Below are positions 4,097-13,143 of a DNA stretch of 64,000 nt, one piece after another. The DNA lies in assembly GCF_009834875.1 (NCBI RefSeq), contig NZ_WVHT01000002.1, forward strand, positions 496,001 through 560,000. The letters are read 5' to 3'. The notes under the pieces were generated by a model. It was given only the letters and a program-made list of their open reading frames with translations, ran no database searches and was not told the origin of the DNA. The stretch's first letter is position 1; the number at the start of each line of letters is the position of its first letter. The stretch comes from Hufsiella arboris (GTDB lineage Bacteria > Bacteroidota > Bacteroidia > Sphingobacteriales > Sphingobacteriaceae). The translations under genes were made by a program, and so were the position numbers.

Positions 4097-4132
4097 CAAA
4101 AGACCTTTCCATTTTGGAAGGGTCTTTTTTTG
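4097..4132 (+). terminator. Rho-independent terminator after the DUF1223 gene
   Basis: A ten-base stem (4101-4110 with 4116-4125, one G-T wobble) closes a five-base loop and is followed by a run of seven T. It sits 30 bases after the stop codon and insulates the kdp operon from the upstream genes. Confidence 0.75.
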
Positions 4133-4216
4133 TGCTTTGAATTTTCGCTGAGCAAATGCGTGCTTTCCAGTGGTTAAATGCACTTTTTATGACAAACCCA
4201 ATTTTCGGAACAGACG

Positions 4217-4232
4217 TGGCATATAGCTTTTA
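4217..4232 (+). promoter_or_regulatory. Possible sigma-54 (-24/-12) promoter of the kdp operon
   Basis: The sequence TGGCATATAGCTTTTA matches the -24 half of the sigma-54 consensus (TGGCA) and has TT at the right spacing, but the GC expected at -12 is TT. It ends 12 bases before the first kdp-region ORF, so transcription would begin at or next to its ATG. The partial sigma-54 activator at the left edge of the window makes the match more interesting; by sequence alone it is weak. Confidence 0.3.
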
Positions 4233-4243
4233 AAATACTAGAC

Positions 4244-4327
4244 ATGATAACTGTTTTCCTATTTCTTCTCATCCTGTTGTTCTGCAGGCTATTCTTTTTA
4301 TCAATCAACTGGTTCGAAAAAATCTAA
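4244..4327 (+). CDS. Micro-ORF: 27-residue membrane peptide preceding kdpF
   Basis: An ATG at 4244 opens a 27-codon frame ending in TAA at 4325-4327. The product is one strongly hydrophobic helix (MITVFLFLLILLFCRLFFLS) followed by the short amphipathic tail INWFEKI. It lies four bases before kdpF and is read in the same direction, so it would be part of the kdp transcript. Size and layout resemble KdpF itself, but the tail differs (KdpF ends KPEKF), so it looks like a second small subunit or regulator and not a duplicated KdpF. I do not recognise it as a named family. The alternative is a chance hydrophobic frame in a leader; the tight spacing and lack of other function for the stretch favour a real peptide. 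Confidence 0.5.
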   Translation: MITVFLFLLILLFCRLFFLSINWFEKI

Positions 4328-4331
4328 CGCT

Positions 4332-4409
4332 ATGCTTGCTTTATTCATCATCGCAGTTGCAGTCTTCATTTATATGATCTACGTGCTGCTAAAACCGGAA
4401 AAATTCTAA
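4332..4409 (+). CDS. kdpF: KdpF, small stabilising subunit of the K+-transporting ATPase
   Basis: A 25-residue single-helix protein, MLALFIIAVAVFIYMIYVLL followed by KPEKF, with the typical YVLLKPEKF ending of KdpF. KdpF sits beside KdpA in the inner membrane and stabilises the KdpFABC complex. The stop (4407-4409) is three bases before the kdpA start, the usual tight arrangement. It is easily missed by gene callers because of its length. Only the final five residues are polar, as expected for a one-pass peptide. Confidence 0.88.
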   Translation: MLALFIIAVAVFIYMIYVLLKPEKF

Positions 4410-4412
4410 ATT

Positions 4413-6131
4413 ATGAACACGGAAATGCTCGGCATTATTGCCACCTATCTTATCACTTTAATTATCGCTATCCCACTTGGGAAATACCTGGCAAAAGTTT
4501 TTGCAGGCGAGCGGAGCTGGACGGATTTCCTTTATCCCATCGAAAATTTCATTTATAAGCTGTCCGGTATCAATCCTAAGGAGCAAATGAACTGGAAGCA
4601 GCACATGAAAGCCATGCTGACTATAAACTCCGTATGGCTGGTTTACGGTTTTTTTGTGTTGCTGTACCAGGATAAACTGCCGTTGAATCCGGATGGCAAC
4701 CCGGGGATGACGCCTGACTTATCGTTCAACACGATCATTAGTTTCGTCGTTAACTGTAATTTGCAGCACTATTCCGGCGAAACCGGTGTCAGCTATCTGA
4801 CGCAGCATTTCGTGTTGATGTTTTTGCATTTCACCAGCGCAGCAACCGGGATTGCCGCGGCGGTTGTCTTTTTTAAAGCTTTCAGGGATAAAAATGCTAC
4901 CAACCTGGGTAACTTCTGGGAGTTCTTCGTTAAATCAATTACCCGTTTACTTCTTCCGCTATCTATCGTTATTGCTTTAACCCTGGCATTTAACGGAACG
5001 CCGACTAGTTATAAAGGCAAAGATCAATTTATTTCTATGCAGGGCGATACAGTGAACGTTTCACGCGGACCTGCCGCCCAGATGATCGCGATTAAGCACC
5101 TCGGTACAAACGGTGGCGGCTGGTTTGGAGCCAATTCAGCGCAGCCATTAGAAAATCCGAATTACCTGACCAACATGGTTGAAGCGATTTCACAGGTAAT
5201 CATACCGATCGCGATGGTTTTAGCTTTTGGATTTTTTATCCGGAGAAAAAGACTGGCGTGGATGATATTCGGCGTGATGACAGTAGGTATGTTTTTGTTA
5301 TTGATCCCTACATTAACCAGCGAACTCGGAGGCAATTCCGCCATCGCAAAAATGGGCATTAGTCAGGCGACCGGCGCAATGGAAGGTAAGGAAGTGAGGT
5401 TCGGCCCTACAGCAACGGCTTACTGGAGTACGATAACTACAATTATTTCAACAGGCTCTGTTAACGGGATGCATGACAGTACGATGCCGCTTACCGGCTT
5501 ATTGCAGATGCTTGGAATGATGATCAACTCTTTTTATGGCGGCTGCGGTGTAGGACTGCTGAATTATTTCATTTACCTGATTATCGCAGTCTTCATATCC
5601 GGACTGATGGTTGGCCGGACACCGGAATTCCTGGGCCACAAAGTAGAAGCTCGGGAAGTAAAGATCGCCGCCCTAATAACGTTGCTAAGTCCTTTCCTGA
5701 TTTTGGCAGGAACTGCTCTGGCAAGTTATGTTTTCACCAAAAGTCCAAATGCTGACTGGGCAGTGAAGGCGGCAAACTGGCTGAATAATCCCGGTTTCCA
5801 TGGTTTTTCGGAAATGCTGTATGAGTACACGTCATCAAACGCAAATAACGGCTCCGGCTTTGAAGGATTGGGAGACAACAACATCTGGTGGAACGTTTCT
5901 ACAGGATTTGTTCTCATACTCGGGCGCTTCCTCCCCATCATTGGCCCGGTGGCGATAGCAGGCTTGCTGGCTCAGAAGAAATACATTCCTGAATCTGCCG
6001 GAACGCTGAAAGCGGATACGCTAACATTTAGCCTGATGACTTTTGCTATAATCGTGGTTCTTAACGCTTTATCATACTTCCCTGCATTGGCACTTGGCCC
6101 AATCGCAGAATACTTCACCATCTTAAAATAA
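4413..6131 (+). CDS. kdpA: Potassium-transporting ATPase KdpA, ion-binding channel-like subunit
   Basis: A 572-residue polytopic protein, close to the usual length of about 560. KdpA belongs to the superfamily of K+ transporters and forms the selectivity filter through which K+ enters KdpFABC. Filter-type motifs are visible: [11 protein letters not shown] near residue 113, [19 protein letters not shown] near 231, the [10 protein letters not shown] loop near 350 and [10 protein letters not shown] near 477. The N-terminus keeps the [10 protein letters not shown] motif. It starts three bases after kdpF and its TAA shares one base with the kdpB ATG (taATG), showing translational coupling. The gene is part of the high-affinity K+ uptake operon normally induced at low K+. 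Confidence 0.98.
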
Positions 6132-8170
6132 TGAAAATCCAATCGAATAAATTATTTGAACCTGCCTTGGTCAACACGGCGTTAAAGCAGTCGTTCGTTA
6201 AACTTGACCCTAGGGTCATGGTCAAAAATCCGGTGATGTTCACCGTCGAGATCGGAACATTCATTATGCTGTTTGTGACGTTTTATTCAGCAAAACAGCA
6301 TGACCAGGGATCGTTCGGATATAACTTTAGTATCTTTCTTATCCTACTTTTAACACTCCTGTTTGCCAATTTTGCCGAAGCAATCGCCGAGGCAAGAGGC
6401 AAAGCACAGGCCGACAGTTTGCGGAAAACACGGGAAGAAACGCCTGCTAAGGTGTTACTCGATAACGGAAATACAGAAACCCGCTCATCCGCCCTCCTGA
6501 AAAAAGGTGATGTATTTATCTGCGAAGCCGGCGATACCATTCCAACTGATGGAGAGATCATCGAAGGCATCGCTACGATCGACGAATCGGCGATCACCGG
6601 TGAATCTGCTCCGGTGATTCGCGAATCGGGTGGTGATAAATCTTCGGTAACCGGCGGTACAAAAGTTTTATCCGACGAAATCAAAGTCGTAGTAACTACT
6701 CAACCCGGCGAGAGTTTTTTAGATAAGATGATCGCTTTAGTTGAAGGTGCCTCTCGTCAAAAAACGCCTAACGAAATTGCCTTAACTATTCTTCTGGCAA
6801 GTTTTACACTGGTTTTTATCATCGTTTGCGTGACGTTAAAGCCGTTTGCAGATTATGCGCAAACGCCGATCACTATCGCAGCATTCATTTCACTTTTCGT
6901 ATGCCTGATCCCTACAACCATCGGTGGTTTGCTTTCGGCAATCGGTATCGCCGGAATGGACCGGGCGCTCCGGGCGAATGTGATTACCAAGTCAGGTAAA
7001 GCGGTAGAAACAGCCGGCGACATCGATACGCTGCTTCTGGACAAAACCGGAACTATAACCATTGGTAACCGCAAAGCGACCAATTTTTATCCGGCTCAAG
7101 GGATTTCACGTGATCATTTTGTGAAAAGCAGTTTACTGAGTTCGCTTTCTGACGAAACTCCGGAGGGAAAATCCATCGTTGAATTGGCACAAAGTATTTT
7201 GCCCTCAGGCGAGTTTACCAAACCGGCTGATGGTGAAATGGAATTTGTAAAGTTCACTGCAGAAACCCGTTCAAGCGGTGTAAATCTGAAAGCCGGAACA
7301 CAAATCCGCAAAGGCGCCTCGGACTCGATCCGCGCAATTGCTGCAAGTGCAGGAAACTCTTTTCCTGATGACATCGACACTGAAGTGAAAAAAATCTCTT
7401 CGAACGGCGGTACGCCTCTCGTCGTTTCCGAAAATGGAAAAGTTCTGGGAGTAATTGAACTTCAGGATATCATAAAACCCGGAATACAAGAGCGGTTTGA
7501 AAGACTTCGCAAGATGGGCGTGAAAACGGTGATGGTTACCGGCGATAACCCGTTAACAGCTAAATACATTGCTGAAAAAGCCGGTGTAGACGATTTTATC
7601 GCGGAAGCAAAACCGGAAGACAAAATGAACTACATCAAAGAGGAGCAGGCAAATGGAAAACTGGTCGCAATGATGGGCGACGGTACCAATGACGCACCCG
7701 CTTTGGCTCAAGCCGATGTTGGCGTGGCCATGAACAGCGGAACCCAGGCTGCGAAAGAAGCCGGTAACATGGTTGATCTGGATAATGACCCAACCAAGCT
7801 GATCGAGATTGTCGAGATCGGTAAACAATTGCTGATCACCCGCGGAACGCTTACTACTTTTTCAATAGCGAACGACGTAGCTAAGTACTTTGCGATTGTT
7901 CCTGCCTTATTTATTGCTTCAATTCCTGCACTGCAAGGGCTTAATATTATGCGACTTACAAGTCCTGAAAGCGCGATCCTATCGGCGGTGATTTTTAACG
8001 CTATCATCATTCCACTACTAATTCCATTAGCGTTGCGTGGAGTGGCTTATAAACCGATTGGTGCAAGCGCTTTGCTAAGACGCAATTTATTAGTTTATGG
8101 CGTTGGTGGTGTAATAGCTCCGTTTATCGGAATCAAATTAATTGATATGGCCCTTGGCCTGTTTGTGTAA
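6131..8170 (+). CDS. kdpB: Potassium-transporting P-type ATPase KdpB
   Basis: A 679-residue P-type ATPase that hydrolyses ATP to drive K+ import by KdpFABC. The actuator loop TGES is at residues 156-159; its serine matches the residue phosphorylated for inhibition in E. coli KdpB. The phosphorylation motif DKTGT is at 304-308 (D304), preceded by the [15 protein letters not shown] membrane motif, and the hinge GDGTND follows near 516. Length and order of motifs are normal and there is no sign of damage. Its start overlaps the kdpA stop by one base. A 75-base gap with short palindromic repeats separates it from kdpC, wider than the other kdp spacings. Confidence 0.98.
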
Positions 8171-8245: not shown

Positions 8246-8812
8246 ATGAAAAAATATATTCTTCAATCGATCCGTCTTACGGTAGTTCTGATGGTTCTTT
8301 TATGCGTGATTTACCCCTTGCTTGTCGCTTTTGCAGGAAAACTTTCAAAAGGACAAGGAGATGGTGAAACTGTAAACCTAAACGGCAAAGTTGTCGGCTA
8401 CGCTTTGATTGGACAAAGTTTTAGTAAACCCGAATACTTCTGGGGCCGTCCGTCGGCTGTCGGTTACAATGCGGCTGGTTCTGCCGGTTCAAATAAAGGT
8501 CCTTCAAATCCTGACTATCTGAAGGACATAAACAATAGAATTGATACGTTGATTACATATCATCCGTATTTAAACCGTTCAGATATTCCTGCAGACCTCG
8601 TAACCGCATCGGGAAGCGGATTGGATCCTGATATTTCAGTTCAGGCGGCCGATATCCAGGTAAAAAGAGTTGCCGAACAGCGTAAAATTGACGAAGGCAA
8701 AGTCCGCGAACTTGTTCAGCGAAACACTACAAGCCCTTTATTCAATTTATTTGGCCCATCCCATGTAAATGTACTTGAACTAAATATCGCGCTTGATAAA
8801 ATTTCTAAATAA
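8246..8812 (+). CDS. kdpC: Potassium-transporting ATPase KdpC
   Basis: A 188-residue subunit with one N-terminal membrane helix (residues 10-32) and a periplasmic domain. The family motifs GQSFSKPEYFWGRPSAVGYN, GSNKGPSNPDY and SGSGLDPDIS are complete, as is the final GPSHVNVLELN segment. KdpC stabilises the complex and increases its affinity for ATP and K+. It follows kdpB after a repeat-bearing 75-base gap with an A-rich stretch just before the ATG, which may serve for initiation since Bacteroidota often lack a Shine-Dalgarno sequence. The porin gene comes 91 bases later. Confidence 0.97.
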   Translation: MKKYILQSIRLTVVLMVLLCVIYPLLVAFAGKLSKGQGDGETVNLNGKVVGYALIGQSFSKPEYFWGRPSAVGYNAAGSAGSNKGPSNPDYLKDINNRIDTLITYHPYLNRSDIPADLVTASGSGLDPDISVQAADIQVKRVAEQRKIDEGKVRELVQRNTTSPLFNLFGPSHVNVLELNIALDKISK

Positions 8813-8820
8813 TACATGAC

Positions 8821-8903
8821 CTCATTTCCGATCGGGCATCTTTTTGAGATGCGAAAGTCCGGAAGGAGGGGACCAACTCAACCATCATTTACAATATATA
8901 ACG
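8821..8903 (+). other. Possible structured leader between kdpC and the porin gene
   Basis: The gap holds two short stems: GCATC (8836-8840) with GATGC (8848-8852), and GTCC (8857-8860) with GGAC (8870-8873). The second encloses the purine-rich GGAAGGAGGG, which resembles a strong ribosome site but lies about 30 bases before the likely porin ATG. I recognise no known riboswitch class. It may be a local translation or processing element within the kdp transcript. Confidence 0.3.
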
Positions 8904-9971
8904 ATGAAAATAATTGCATTTTTAATTGCCGCTGCTTTAATTGGATTTAAAGGTTTCGCACAAGATTCCCCGGTTAAAATTTCAGGTTACCTGGAAACAT
9001 ATTATAGCTATGATTTCAACAAGCCATCCGACCACAACCGCCCTTCGTTCATTTATTCACACAATCGAGCAAACGAGGTGAATGTTAACCTGGCTTTCGT
9101 AAAAGGCGCTTACGATAATGGCTCCTTCAGAGCTAACCTGGCATTAATGGCCGGTACGTATTCAAATGCTAATCTTGCAGCCGAGCCCGGAGTTCTAAAA
9201 AATATCTATGAAGCTAACGCAGGAATCAAACTGGCTAAACATGCCAACCTTTGAGTCGATGCCGGAATTTTCGCCTCTCATATCGGGTTTGAAAGCGCTG
9301 TTTCAAAAGATTGTTGGGCATTAACACGAAATATTGCATCAGATAATACTCCGTATTACGAAACCGGGGCGAAATTGACTTACACAACCGATGATAATAA
9401 ATTCACCGTTGCAGGATTTTATTTGAACGGCTGGCAGCGAATAGCACGCCAGGACGGAAACAATAAACCTGCTGGCGGACTTCAGTTAACCTGGAAACCA
9501 GGTGATAAAGTCACTCTGAATTATAGTAATTATTTAGGTATAGAAGGTGCAGATTCTGTAGCCGTTAGAAGATTCTACCATAATTTTTATGCGATATTCC
9601 AGCTTACGAACCAGTTTGGGTTAACCGCGGGTTTCGATTATGGAATGCAGCAAAAAGTTAAAGGAAGCAATGAACACAACGAGGTTATATCACCGGTCAT
9701 TATTGCGCAATACAAATTTGCAAACAAATGGGCTATGGCCGGCCGTTTCGAATATTACAAAGATAAGAACGGAATATTCATAGCAACCGCGACCCCTAAT
9801 GGATTTAACACAAAAGGCTATTCATTAAACATCGACTATTCGCCGATTCCAAATGCATTGGTGAGGTTGGAAGGGAAAGTTTACGATAGCGAAGACGCCG
9901 TTTTTGTTCGAAATGAAAACCCTGTTAGAAACAATTCGGCACTAACAGGAAGTATCGCGGTTAGTTTTTAA
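8904..9971 (+). pseudogene. kdp-linked outer-membrane beta-barrel porin, interrupted by an in-frame TGA
   Basis: The frame from ATG 8904 to TAA 9971 encodes about 355 residues of a porin of the BBP2/OmpL-like kind that accompanies kdp in this group. A signal peptide (MKIIAFLIAAALIGFKGFAQ) is followed by SGYLETYYSYDFN and alternating barrel strands, ending in the phenylalanine (IAVSF) usual for outer-membrane proteins. At 9252-9254 a TGA stands inside the conserved context NL-stop-VDAGIFASHIGFESA, where relatives carry Trp (TGG), and the frame then continues intact. Either one G-to-A change inactivated the gene recently or it is a sequencing error. The 5' start was placed at 8904 and not 8844 because only 8904 begins a signal peptide. 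It would admit K+ or other ions across the outer membrane. Confidence 0.8.
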
Positions 9972-10014: not shown

Positions 10015-11145
10015 ATGGAAGAAGAGAATAAAGATAATTCGGATAAAAATTTTCTCGACCTGGTAAAAAAATCCAGGCGGGGAAAGTTTAAGATTTATAT
10101 CGGTATGAGCGCCGGTGTCGGGAAGACTTATCGTATGCTCCAGGAAGCGCATGCTCTCAGGAAAAACCGGATCGATATTCAAATAGGATATATTGAAACT
10201 CACAACCGTGCTGAAACGCATTCTTTACTCGGCGGGATTCCAATCATTCCAAGGCGTAAAATTTTTTACAAGGGTAAGGAGCTGGAGGAGATGGATCTGA
10301 GGACCATTTTGAACATTCATCCCGAAGTGGTAATTGTTGATGAACTGGCTCACACGAATGTAGAAGGTAGTAAAAACGGCAAGCGCTGGCAGGATGTAAT
10401 TGATATCCTCGAATCGGGCATAAGCGTTATCTCCGCGGTCAACATTCAGCACCTGGAAAGCATGAATGAAGAGATTGAGGAAATTACAGGCATCCCAATC
10501 ACCGAGCGTATTCCTGACAAGATTTTGGAGATGGCCGACGAAATCGTGAACATCGATTTAACCGCCGACGAATTGATTGAAAGGCTTAAAGACGGGAAAA
10601 TTTACGATTCCACAAAAATTCAACGGGCGCTTGGAAATTTTTTTCAATCGGATAAGATCCTTCAACTGCGTGAGCTGGCGCTGAAAGAAGTGGCGCACCA
10701 CCTCGAACGGAAAATTGATATCGAAATACCGAAGCAGGTGAAATTGCGGCCGGAGCGCTTCCTGGCCTGTATTTCATCAAACTCGGAAACATCTAAGGTA
10801 GTTATACGAAAAACGGCCCGGCTGGCATCGTATTACCGCTCGCCCTGGATCGTGTTGTACGTGCAAAGCAGCAGCGAAGCGATGGATCGGATCAAGCTAG
10901 ATAAGCAGCGCCATTTAATCAACAACTTCAAGCTGGCAACCGAACTTGGCGCTGAACTGGTTAAAATTAAAAGCGACCAGATTACTCAAACGATTATGAA
11001 AATCGCTGAAGAAAAAGAAATCACCACTATTTGTATCGGCAAACCGCACCTAAACCTTTTTCAGGTTATTTTGCGGACGGCGATTTTTAGTCAGTTATTG
11101 CGGAAGATTTCTCAGACTGAGATTGATCTGGTTATTTTGTCGTGA
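10015..11145 (+). CDS. kdpD: Stand-alone KdpD sensor protein (KdpD and Usp domains, no kinase core)
   Basis: A 376-residue cytosolic protein matching only the N-terminal half of E. coli KdpD. The KdpD domain has Walker A GMSAGVGKT (residues 30-38), GYIETHNRAET (58-67) and Walker B VIVDELAHTN (106-115); a universal-stress-type domain follows from about residue 240. The four membrane helices and kinase core of full KdpD are missing and the frame ends cleanly, so this is a split sensor and not a truncation. A kinase gene follows 240 bases later. KdpD monitors K+ status for control of kdp; the Usp domain of KdpD proteins is a nucleotide-binding module, which in some bacteria binds c-di-AMP. Confidence 0.93.
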   Translation: MEEENKDNSDKNFLDLVKKSRRGKFKIYIGMSAGVGKTYRMLQEAHALRKNRIDIQIGYIETHNRAETHSLLGGIPIIPRRKIFYKGKELEEMDLRTILNIHPEVVIVDELAHTNVEGSKNGKRWQDVIDILESGISVISAVNIQHLESMNEEIEEITGIPITERIPDKILEMADEIVNIDLTADELIERLKDGKIYDSTKIQRALGNFFQSDKILQLRELALKEVAHHLERKIDIEIPKQVKLRPERFLACISSNSETSKVVIRKTARLASYYRSPWIVLYVQSSSEAMDRIKLDKQRHLINNFKLATELGAELVKIKSDQITQTIMKIAEEKEITTICIGKPHLNLFQVILRTAIFSQLLRKISQTEIDLVILS

Positions 11146-11385: not shown

Positions 11386-13143
11386 ATGAAAATAAAAACC
11401 AAACTCCGCCTCGGATTTGGATTTCTGTTCGTGGTGGTTGTATTTTTTGGATTGCTTTGTGGATTTTACATCTACAGGATCTCGAACGACTCGAAAGTTA
11501 TATTGAAAGATAATTACGAAACACTCGGATTTACCCGGGAAATGAGGGCAGTGCTTGACGATCAAACATTGCCTTTAAGTCGTGGCGCCGCAGAACGTTT
11601 CAATGAAAACTTAACGAAAGAAGAAGGCAATATTACCGAGCGCGGCGAAGGTACACTCGTGGCAGAATTACGATCGAATTTCGGAAAACTAACCGCCGGT
11701 AATTCATCGCGTGAAGCTATGGAACAGGCGGAAAAAGATGCCCGCTTTGATCTCCGGCGAGTCGACGAGCTGAACATGAACGCCATCGTCAGGAAAAATG
11801 AACAAGCGCAAAGCTCGGTCAAAAAAGCAACTATTTATCTCGCTTTCGCGGGAACGATGACTTTCCTTGTGCTCTTTAGCTTCATCGTAAATTTTCCCGG
11901 TTTTATCGCTAATCCACTAAATGAACTTCGCGAAGGCATCCGCGAAATCGGGTTGCAGAATTATAAACGGCGGTTAAATTTCAGCACAAATGATGAATTC
12001 GCCGAGCTTGCCGGAGCTTTTAACCAAATGGCCGTAAAGCTCGACGATTGGGAGAACAGCAACCTGGCCAAGATCATGTCGGAAAAGATGCGGATCGAAG
12101 CAATTATTGAACAGATGCAAGATGCCATCATTGGGCTGGATGAGAAAGGACAGGTTCTTTTCATAAATCCTCAGGCACAAAAATTATTCAATATGCAGCA
12201 ATCCGCCGTTCTGAAAAAGAACGCCGGAGCTTTAGCTGAAAAAAACGATCTGCTAAGGACCGTTCTCGCCGATGGAGAACAAAAACAATTAAAAATTTTT
12301 GCTGATGACCGTGAATCTTATTTTCAGATGGAAAAGCGGCAGATTTTTGTTCCCAACTTTCAAAACCAGGATAATGAGTCGGTGCTTACCACGGAGCAAT
12401 CGGCGGGAACGGTTTACGTATTACGTAACATAACAGCTTTTCGCGAATTAGATCAGGCGAAAACTAATTTTATTGCGACTATTTCGCATGAGCTAAAAAC
12501 TCCGATCGCATCGATATTAATGAGCATCAATTTATTGAAGGACAAACGAGTGGGTGAACTGAATACGGAGCAGGAAAAACTGGTTGTAAGCATGAAAGAC
12601 GACAATGAGCGTCTGCTAAAAATCACCGCGGAGCTTTTGCAGATGGCACAGTTGGAAACCGGCAATATTCTACTCAATATCCAGGCGGTAAATCCGGTCG
12701 ACATTGTAAACTATGCGATTGATTCAATCAAGTTCCAGGCTGAGCAAAGGCAGATAGCCGTCGAAAAACATTTTGAAGAGAAATTGCCTGCGGTTTTCGC
12801 TGATACGGAAAAGACCGCCTGGGTTATTGTTAACTTTTTATCTAACGCCTTGCGTTATAGTGCCGACCGTTCCAAGATCATACTCAGTGTTAAGCGGATT
12901 GGCAACTACGTCGATTTTTCGGTCAGGGATTTTGGAAAAGGTGTAGAAGAACAGTACCAAAAGCGATTGTTCGACCGGTATTTCCAGGTTCCCACCGATG
13001 GGAAAAATAAATCCGGCAACGGATTAGGCCTGGCTATTTCAAAAGATTTTATTGAAGCGCAGCAAGGGGATATATACCTGGAAAGTGAGATGGGAGCGGG
13101 CAGCAAGTTTGGGTTCAGGCTCCCGGTTTCTAAAACTGCTTAA
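11386..13143 (+). CDS. HAMP/PAS sensor histidine kinase next to KdpD
   Basis: A 585-residue membrane kinase. Two membrane helices (about residues 9-30 and 148-172) flank a ca. 115-residue periplasmic region; HAMP (173-225), a PAS-like segment (235-350), HisKA with H368 in ATISHELKTP, and a HATPase domain (N box NFLSNALRYS, G boxes DFGKG and GNGLGLAI) follow. It directly follows the split KdpD gene and plausibly supplies the missing kinase activity for K+ sensing; relatives occupy the same place in other Sphingobacteriaceae kdp loci. No cognate regulator lies beside it, so the sigma-54 regulator at the left edge is the best local candidate (inference). Confidence 0.92.
   Translation: MKIKTKLRLGFGFLFVVVVFFGLLCGFYIYRISNDSKVILKDNYETLGFTREMRAVLDDQTLPLSRGAAERFNENLTKEEGNITERGEGTLVAELRSNFGKLTAGNSSREAMEQAEKDARFDLRRVDELNMNAIVRKNEQAQSSVKKATIYLAFAGTMTFLVLFSFIVNFPGFIANPLNELREGIREIGLQNYKRRLNFSTNDEFAELAGAFNQMAVKLDDWENSNLAKIMSEKMRIEAIIEQMQDAIIGLDEKGQVLFINPQAQKLFNMQQSAVLKKNAGALAEKNDLLRTVLADGEQKQLKIFADDRESYFQMEKRQIFVPNFQNQDNESVLTTEQSAGTVYVLRNITAFRELDQAKTNFIATISHELKTPIASILMSINLLKDKRVGELNTEQEKLVVSMKDDNERLLKITAELLQMAQLETGNILLNIQAVNPVDIVNYAIDSIKFQAEQRQIAVEKHFEEKLPAVFADTEKTAWVIVNFLSNALRYSADRSKIILSVKRIGNYVDFSVRDFGKGVEEQYQKRLFDRYFQVPTDGKNKSGNGLGLAISKDFIEAQQGDIYLESEMGAGSKFGFRLPVSKTA

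Follow-up and report, generated by a model that had tools for sequence, protein, structure and literature searches.

Results

The window analysed here, a 64,000-nucleotide stretch of the Hufsiella arboris genome, holds a kdp cluster encoded on the forward strand. kdpF (4332–4409; MLALFIIAVAVFIYMIYVLLKPEKF) matches PF09604 at E = 1.4e-7 together with TIGR02115. It is followed by kdpA (4413–6131), which matches PF03814 in its own genome, by the P-type ATPase gene kdpB (6131–8170), assigned by its position and a DKTGT motif in its translation, and by kdpC (8246–8812; PF02669, E = 1.4e-69). A kdp-linked outer-membrane porin gene (BBP2) comes next at 8844–9971, with PF07642 on 9375–9968; it contains an in-frame TGA at 9252–9254 with the frame open on both sides, indicating either a nonsense mutation or an error in the sequencing. 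Control of the cluster is unusual, combining an NtrC-type sigma-54 response regulator with a split KdpD. The sensor half, with KdpD and Usp domains, lies at 10015–11145 (PF02702, E = 2.1e-89; PF00582, E = 1.1e-4, just under the gathering cut-off), and a separate histidine kinase of HAMP-PAS-HisKA-HATPase architecture lies at 11386–13143. The C-terminal part of the response regulator occupies 1–830 (PF00158, HTH_8); its gene starts outside the window and encodes 445 residues in the genome (complete ORF in L205). No OmpR-type KdpE was seen nearby.

Ahead of kdpF and in the same direction lies an ORF running from ATG to TAA at 4244–4327, which encodes a 27-residue peptide, MITVFLFLLILLFCRLFFLSINWFEKI. 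Its stop codon ends four bases before kdpF, as a sequence-only reading of this DNA had described. That reading was also right that the kdp operon opens with two micro-proteins and that the first of them is unannotated: no Pfam or NCBIfam model matches it. The peptide has a single hydrophobic stretch (best 17-residue window, residues 2–18, hydropathy 2.78), followed by a conserved tail, S-I-N/D-W-F-E-K-I (4299–4324), delimited by column conservation and alignment A1. This tail is likely an interfacial segment following the membrane helix. Calling it amphipathic, as was done earlier, is reasonable, with a hydrophobic moment over the last nine residues of 0.46–0.67 compared with 0.31 for KdpF.

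We fetched 80 related loci with KdpA; 79 of them include sequence upstream of kdpA, and they cover Sphingobacteriaceae, Chitinophagaceae and one member of Cytophagales. A homologous ORF of 26–28 residues precedes kdpF in 78 of the 79. Most of these come from Pedobacter, Mucilaginibacter and Arcticibacter, and Chitinophaga, Niastella, Filimonas, Solitalea and one Cytophagales MAG are represented as well. The sole exception, Pedobacter deserti (L068), lacks the peptide and has an intact kdpF. Across relatives the tail (consensus K-S-I-D-W-F-E-K-I) is more conserved than the membrane part: among 76 distinct DNA sequences, F is kept in 75, the final I in 73, E in 72 and W in 69. Change also respects the reading frame. 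Over 245 closely related pairs, pN/pS was 0.17 in the peptide frame, and the two alternative frames gave 1.07 and 2.64; the same measure gave 0.11 for kdpF and 0.07 for the start of kdpA. For a wider set the observed ratio was 0.32, a value reached by none of 300 permutations of the alignment columns (mean 0.89, s.d. 0.19, minimum 0.49). The sequence-only reading had left conservation of the ORF, synonymous-biased change and conservation of the tail to be checked, and all three are present in these comparisons; neither of the two outcomes that it named as refuting was observed. Judged from them, 4244–4327 is an overlooked gene that is real, widely conserved and unnamed.

A sigma-54-like promoter, CGGAACAGACGTGGCA, of the form GG-N10-GC lies at 4206–4221 (best site at −38, predicted start ~12 nt before the peptide ATG), and the NtrC-type regulator encoded nearby is of the kind that such a promoter needs. 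Under a strict pattern (GG-N10-G[GC] in context, within 60 nt of the peptide start), 50 of the 79 loci carry a site, and 48 of these sites fall within −44 to −38. A control stretch gave 3 of 79, and shuffled sequences 0.2%. Upstream, an intrinsic-terminator-like hairpin at 4098–4134, with a 14-pair stem and then a T run, separates the preceding DUF1223 gene from the kdp transcription unit; a similar hairpin is found in 59 of 79 loci versus 1 of 79 shuffled. Because the sigma-54-like promoter lies ~40 nt before its start, the peptide gene is the first cistron of the kdp operon, a place that is conserved. By this prediction its translation comes first, and the leader measures only ~12–18 nt.

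We ran profile A1, built from 34 peptides, over 395 Bacteroidia genomes in which KdpA was located independently. It gave 56 matches at E ≤ 1e-4, 54 of them on the same strand as a KdpA match and 114–918 nt (median 141 nt) upstream of it. The remaining two lie in genomes without kdpA. In one (G046, locus L160) a truncated kdpF and, after it, the end of a histidine kinase follow the peptide; in the other (G241, locus L161) a porin gene does. Both places look like remnants of deleted kdp operons that have lost their pump genes. Conversely, the profile detects the peptide at 58 of 65 kdpA loci, and inspection by eye adds two (G087, G036), or ~92% in all; that inspection covered the remaining loci except the second kdpA of G363, and the contig of G235 is cut at kdpA. 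Two genomes (G074, G150) have kdpF and no peptide, and the second kdpA of G256 has neither. Linkage of the peptide to kdp is near-exclusive.

Rearranged loci show that the peptide is independent of the position of kdpF. Two DUF7674 genes lie between peptide and kdpF in L087, and one in each of L101 and L144, with the peptide motif intact, so the peptide is an independent gene and not a leader. DUF7674 (PF24722) genes, sometimes two, occur inside or directly before the kdp operon, adjoining the peptide, in many Bacteroidota (L144, L087, L101, L161, L146, L092, L108, L110 and L105); the proteins of L144 and L161 were checked against PF24722, and the others are assigned by resemblance. We know of no function for DUF7674, and its presence near kdp operons suggests a potassium-related role. 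An additional small one-helix ORF of 36–40 residues (for example MRRELDPFEKALLIFIAIMAAICIITIIIVQIKRLLI) is found near the peptide or kdpF in a few kdp loci of Bacteroidota (L105, L110, L092, L111 and L147).

One-helix peptides are also encoded beside kdpF in plasmid-borne kdp loci of Azospirillum, Rhizobium, Sinorhizobium, Shinella, Methylocystis, Paracoccus, Acetobacter, Roseomonas and Novosphingobium, and likewise of Roseateles, Mycetohabitans, Burkholderia, Deinococcus, Streptomyces and Bacillus badius. These non-Bacteroidota peptides have 26–28 residues in 14 of 15 cases (34 in Mycetohabitans), an invariant Asp at position 2–3 and often C-D-R-L at the end; in Burkholderia stagnalis the peptide follows kdpF, in the order kdpF-peptide-kdpA. 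Other classes of the phylum Bacteroidota, as delimited by GTDB, have both kinds of peptide. A different conserved peptide of 30–33 residues, MNVYHHLYFGILIFLILAGAAGLIGFIFHIGG, precedes kdpF in a non-Bacteroidia family (f84; L187, L188, L189). The earlier reading had placed the peptide 'in this phylum', which holds across the class Bacteroidia and some other classes but is too narrow, since similar-sized peptides occupy the same place in four further phyla. An ORF scan of kdp loci found no such peptide in E. coli, Enterococcus, Lactiplantibacillus, Halobacterium, Tsukamurella or Proteus, the loci checked for the first four being plasmid-borne. The loci that lack the peptide, namely those of Pedobacter deserti, G074 and G150, where kdpF is intact, and the plasmid-borne ones of E. 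coli, Enterococcus, Lactiplantibacillus and Halobacterium, indicate that not every Kdp pump needs it.

Annotation of these peptides is sparse. The Rhizobium form occurs in 166 plasmid records, nearly all of which, among the matches listed, have no annotated feature there, and the Mycetohabitans peptide is named 'potassium ABC transporter ATPase' by NCBI (WP_212667346.1). In Roseateles sp. XES5 the NCBI kdpF (L179:646–819, 57 residues) is extended upstream across the peptide gene in another frame, an error made because the peptide is not known.

Peptides from Alpha- and Betaproteobacteria, Deinococcus, Streptomyces and Bacillus (A3 and A5) share with those of Bacteroidota their place, length, single helix, basic C-terminus and often an acidic residue near the N-terminus. 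They differ in the tail, C-D-R-L versus W-F-E-K-I, and homology is not demonstrable by profile comparison, which returned probabilities of 8% and 35%. The latter value came from hhalign of A4 against A5 (P = 4e-4, in register over 23 columns); it is not evidence of homology, because A1 and KdpF align by the helix alone at P = 4.5e-5. The A3 profile of non-Bacteroidota peptides matched no Bacteroidia peptide.

Discussion

We think it fairly probable that the first cistron's one-helix inner-membrane peptide joins KdpF as another small accessory subunit of the Kdp pump. Its near-exclusive linkage to the pump, its survival through operon rearrangement and the varied regulators nearby together point to the pump itself as its partner. 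The helix would probably pack against KdpA or KdpB with the W-F-E-K-I tail along the cytoplasmic face, and the peptide would help to assemble, stabilize or tune the pump under potassium limitation. Size, single helix, an acidic or neutral N-terminus and a basic C-terminus suggest, by the positive-inside rule, the same orientation as KdpF, probably with the N-terminus outside and the charged tail inside. We infer that the peptide is translated, as well as its topology, physical association and effect. Counting against a subunit role are the loci that lack the peptide and keep kdpF intact (L068, G074, G150), the plasmid-borne loci of E. coli, Enterococcus, Lactiplantibacillus and Halobacterium, which lack it too, and the two genomes that retain it after loss of kdpABC, though these are apparently fresh deletions.

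The main rival, which we regard as unlikely, holds that the peptide is a regulator: made with the operon, it would act on a KdpD-type sensor or the separate kinase in expression feedback instead of joining the pump. There is precedent for small membrane peptides acting on sensor kinases: MgrB and SafA, both cited in PMC11539335, act on PhoQ. The cluster also includes genes for half a KdpD and for a separate histidine kinase. The peptide gene, however, is located among pump genes and not sensor genes. Moreover, such peptides accompany kdp whatever its regulators, NtrC-type sigma-54 in Bacteroidota and KdpD on proteobacterial and bacillar plasmids. This point is indirect, because the two groups of peptides are not proven to be homologous.

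Less probable again is that the peptide arose by duplication of KdpF, as a diverged paralogue that either fills another KdpF-like site or stands in for KdpF. Both are one-helix peptides of similar size encoded next to kdpA at the head of the kdp operon, both have a conserved charged end (PEKF in KdpF, FEKI in the peptide), and hhalign aligns the helices of A1 and A2 with a probability of 69%. That alignment covers only the helix at 5% identity and is gone with the broader alignment A4 (4.5%), on which grounds we rejected a KdpF duplicate. The peptide and its relatives have no match to PF09604 or TIGR02115, whereas the neighbouring kdpF does, and alignments A1 and A2 show the peptide to be without a sequence of the KdpF type Y-x-x-Y-V-L-x-x-P-E-x-F. 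The two consensus sequences, Y..YVL.KPEKF of KdpF and CW..YKSIDWFEKI of the peptide, co-occur in the same operons.

We give slightly less credence still to the view that the ORF is a leader, coupled through its translation to that of kdpF or tuning it, with the peptide itself being unimportant. Such coupling would suit the stop codon's position 3–6 nt before kdpF in most Sphingobacteriaceae loci, but it is hard to hold generally. A leader sequence would drift freely, whereas the peptide is constrained at the amino-acid level, most strongly in its tail. A leader would also keep a fixed position, yet whole genes stand between an intact peptide and kdpF in three loci, and the peptide follows kdpF in B. 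stagnalis; these two arrangements exclude a leader or attenuator as a general explanation. The predicted 5' leader is just ~12–18 nt long, and Rfam finds no element above threshold near the peptide. Finally, a chance hydrophobic ORF, of a kind frequent in AT-rich intergenic DNA, has a negligible probability, being ruled out by the 78 of 79 conservation and the frame tests and opposed by the genome-wide kdp link, and only 6 of 2370 shuffled upstream regions yielded an ATG ORF of 24–35 codons with a TM-like stretch ending ≤15 nt from kdpF.

The proposed second accessory subunit has parallels. KdpF is itself an established one-helix Kdp subunit, as described in PMC11539335, and AcrZ (same source) and CydX are likewise short one-helix proteins encoded by or acting on larger membrane complexes, though other ones. 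Our literature searches turned up nothing on a second micro-protein in kdp operons of Bacteroidota. The only precedent found is a pair of small ORFs before kdpA in Clostridium acetobutylicum, orfZ and orfY (kdpZ and kdpY), which belong to a single species and are compared here by description, not by sequence. Treuner-Lange et al. (1997) reportedly found that they encode hydrophobic peptides, and to our knowledge no family has been built from them. The operon order in that species is given as kdpZYABCXDE (PMC5401905). We describe the gene as a new, so far unannotated, family of micro-proteins belonging to a known system. In Caulobacter, a structured 5' UTR of ~100 nt is reported before kdpF (PMC8552747). 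It could hide a peptide ORF of this kind.

The conserved peptide also marks a systematic annotation gap, in that the NCBI pipeline omits it or misnames it, and stretched the Roseateles kdpF back over it. Kdp is a textbook potassium pump that has been studied almost only in E. coli, and the E. coli kdp locus that we checked lacks the peptide gene. The sequence comparisons suggest that annotation has overlooked a second tiny partner, which the Kdp pump outside E. coli probably possesses. A bolder version, possible but in our view doubtful, is that most Kdp pumps outside enterobacteria would have five subunits, two of them one-helix; that the kdpF-preceding peptides of Bacteroidota, Proteobacteria, Deinococcota, Actinomycetota and Bacillota would form one ancient unannotated family; and that the known structures, all from E. 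coli, would show a pump that lost the peptide. With another conserved micro-protein opening the operon throughout a phylum, and look-alikes in other phyla, the list of subunits of a model transporter would have to be revised, and structural work on Kdp gains a concrete target.
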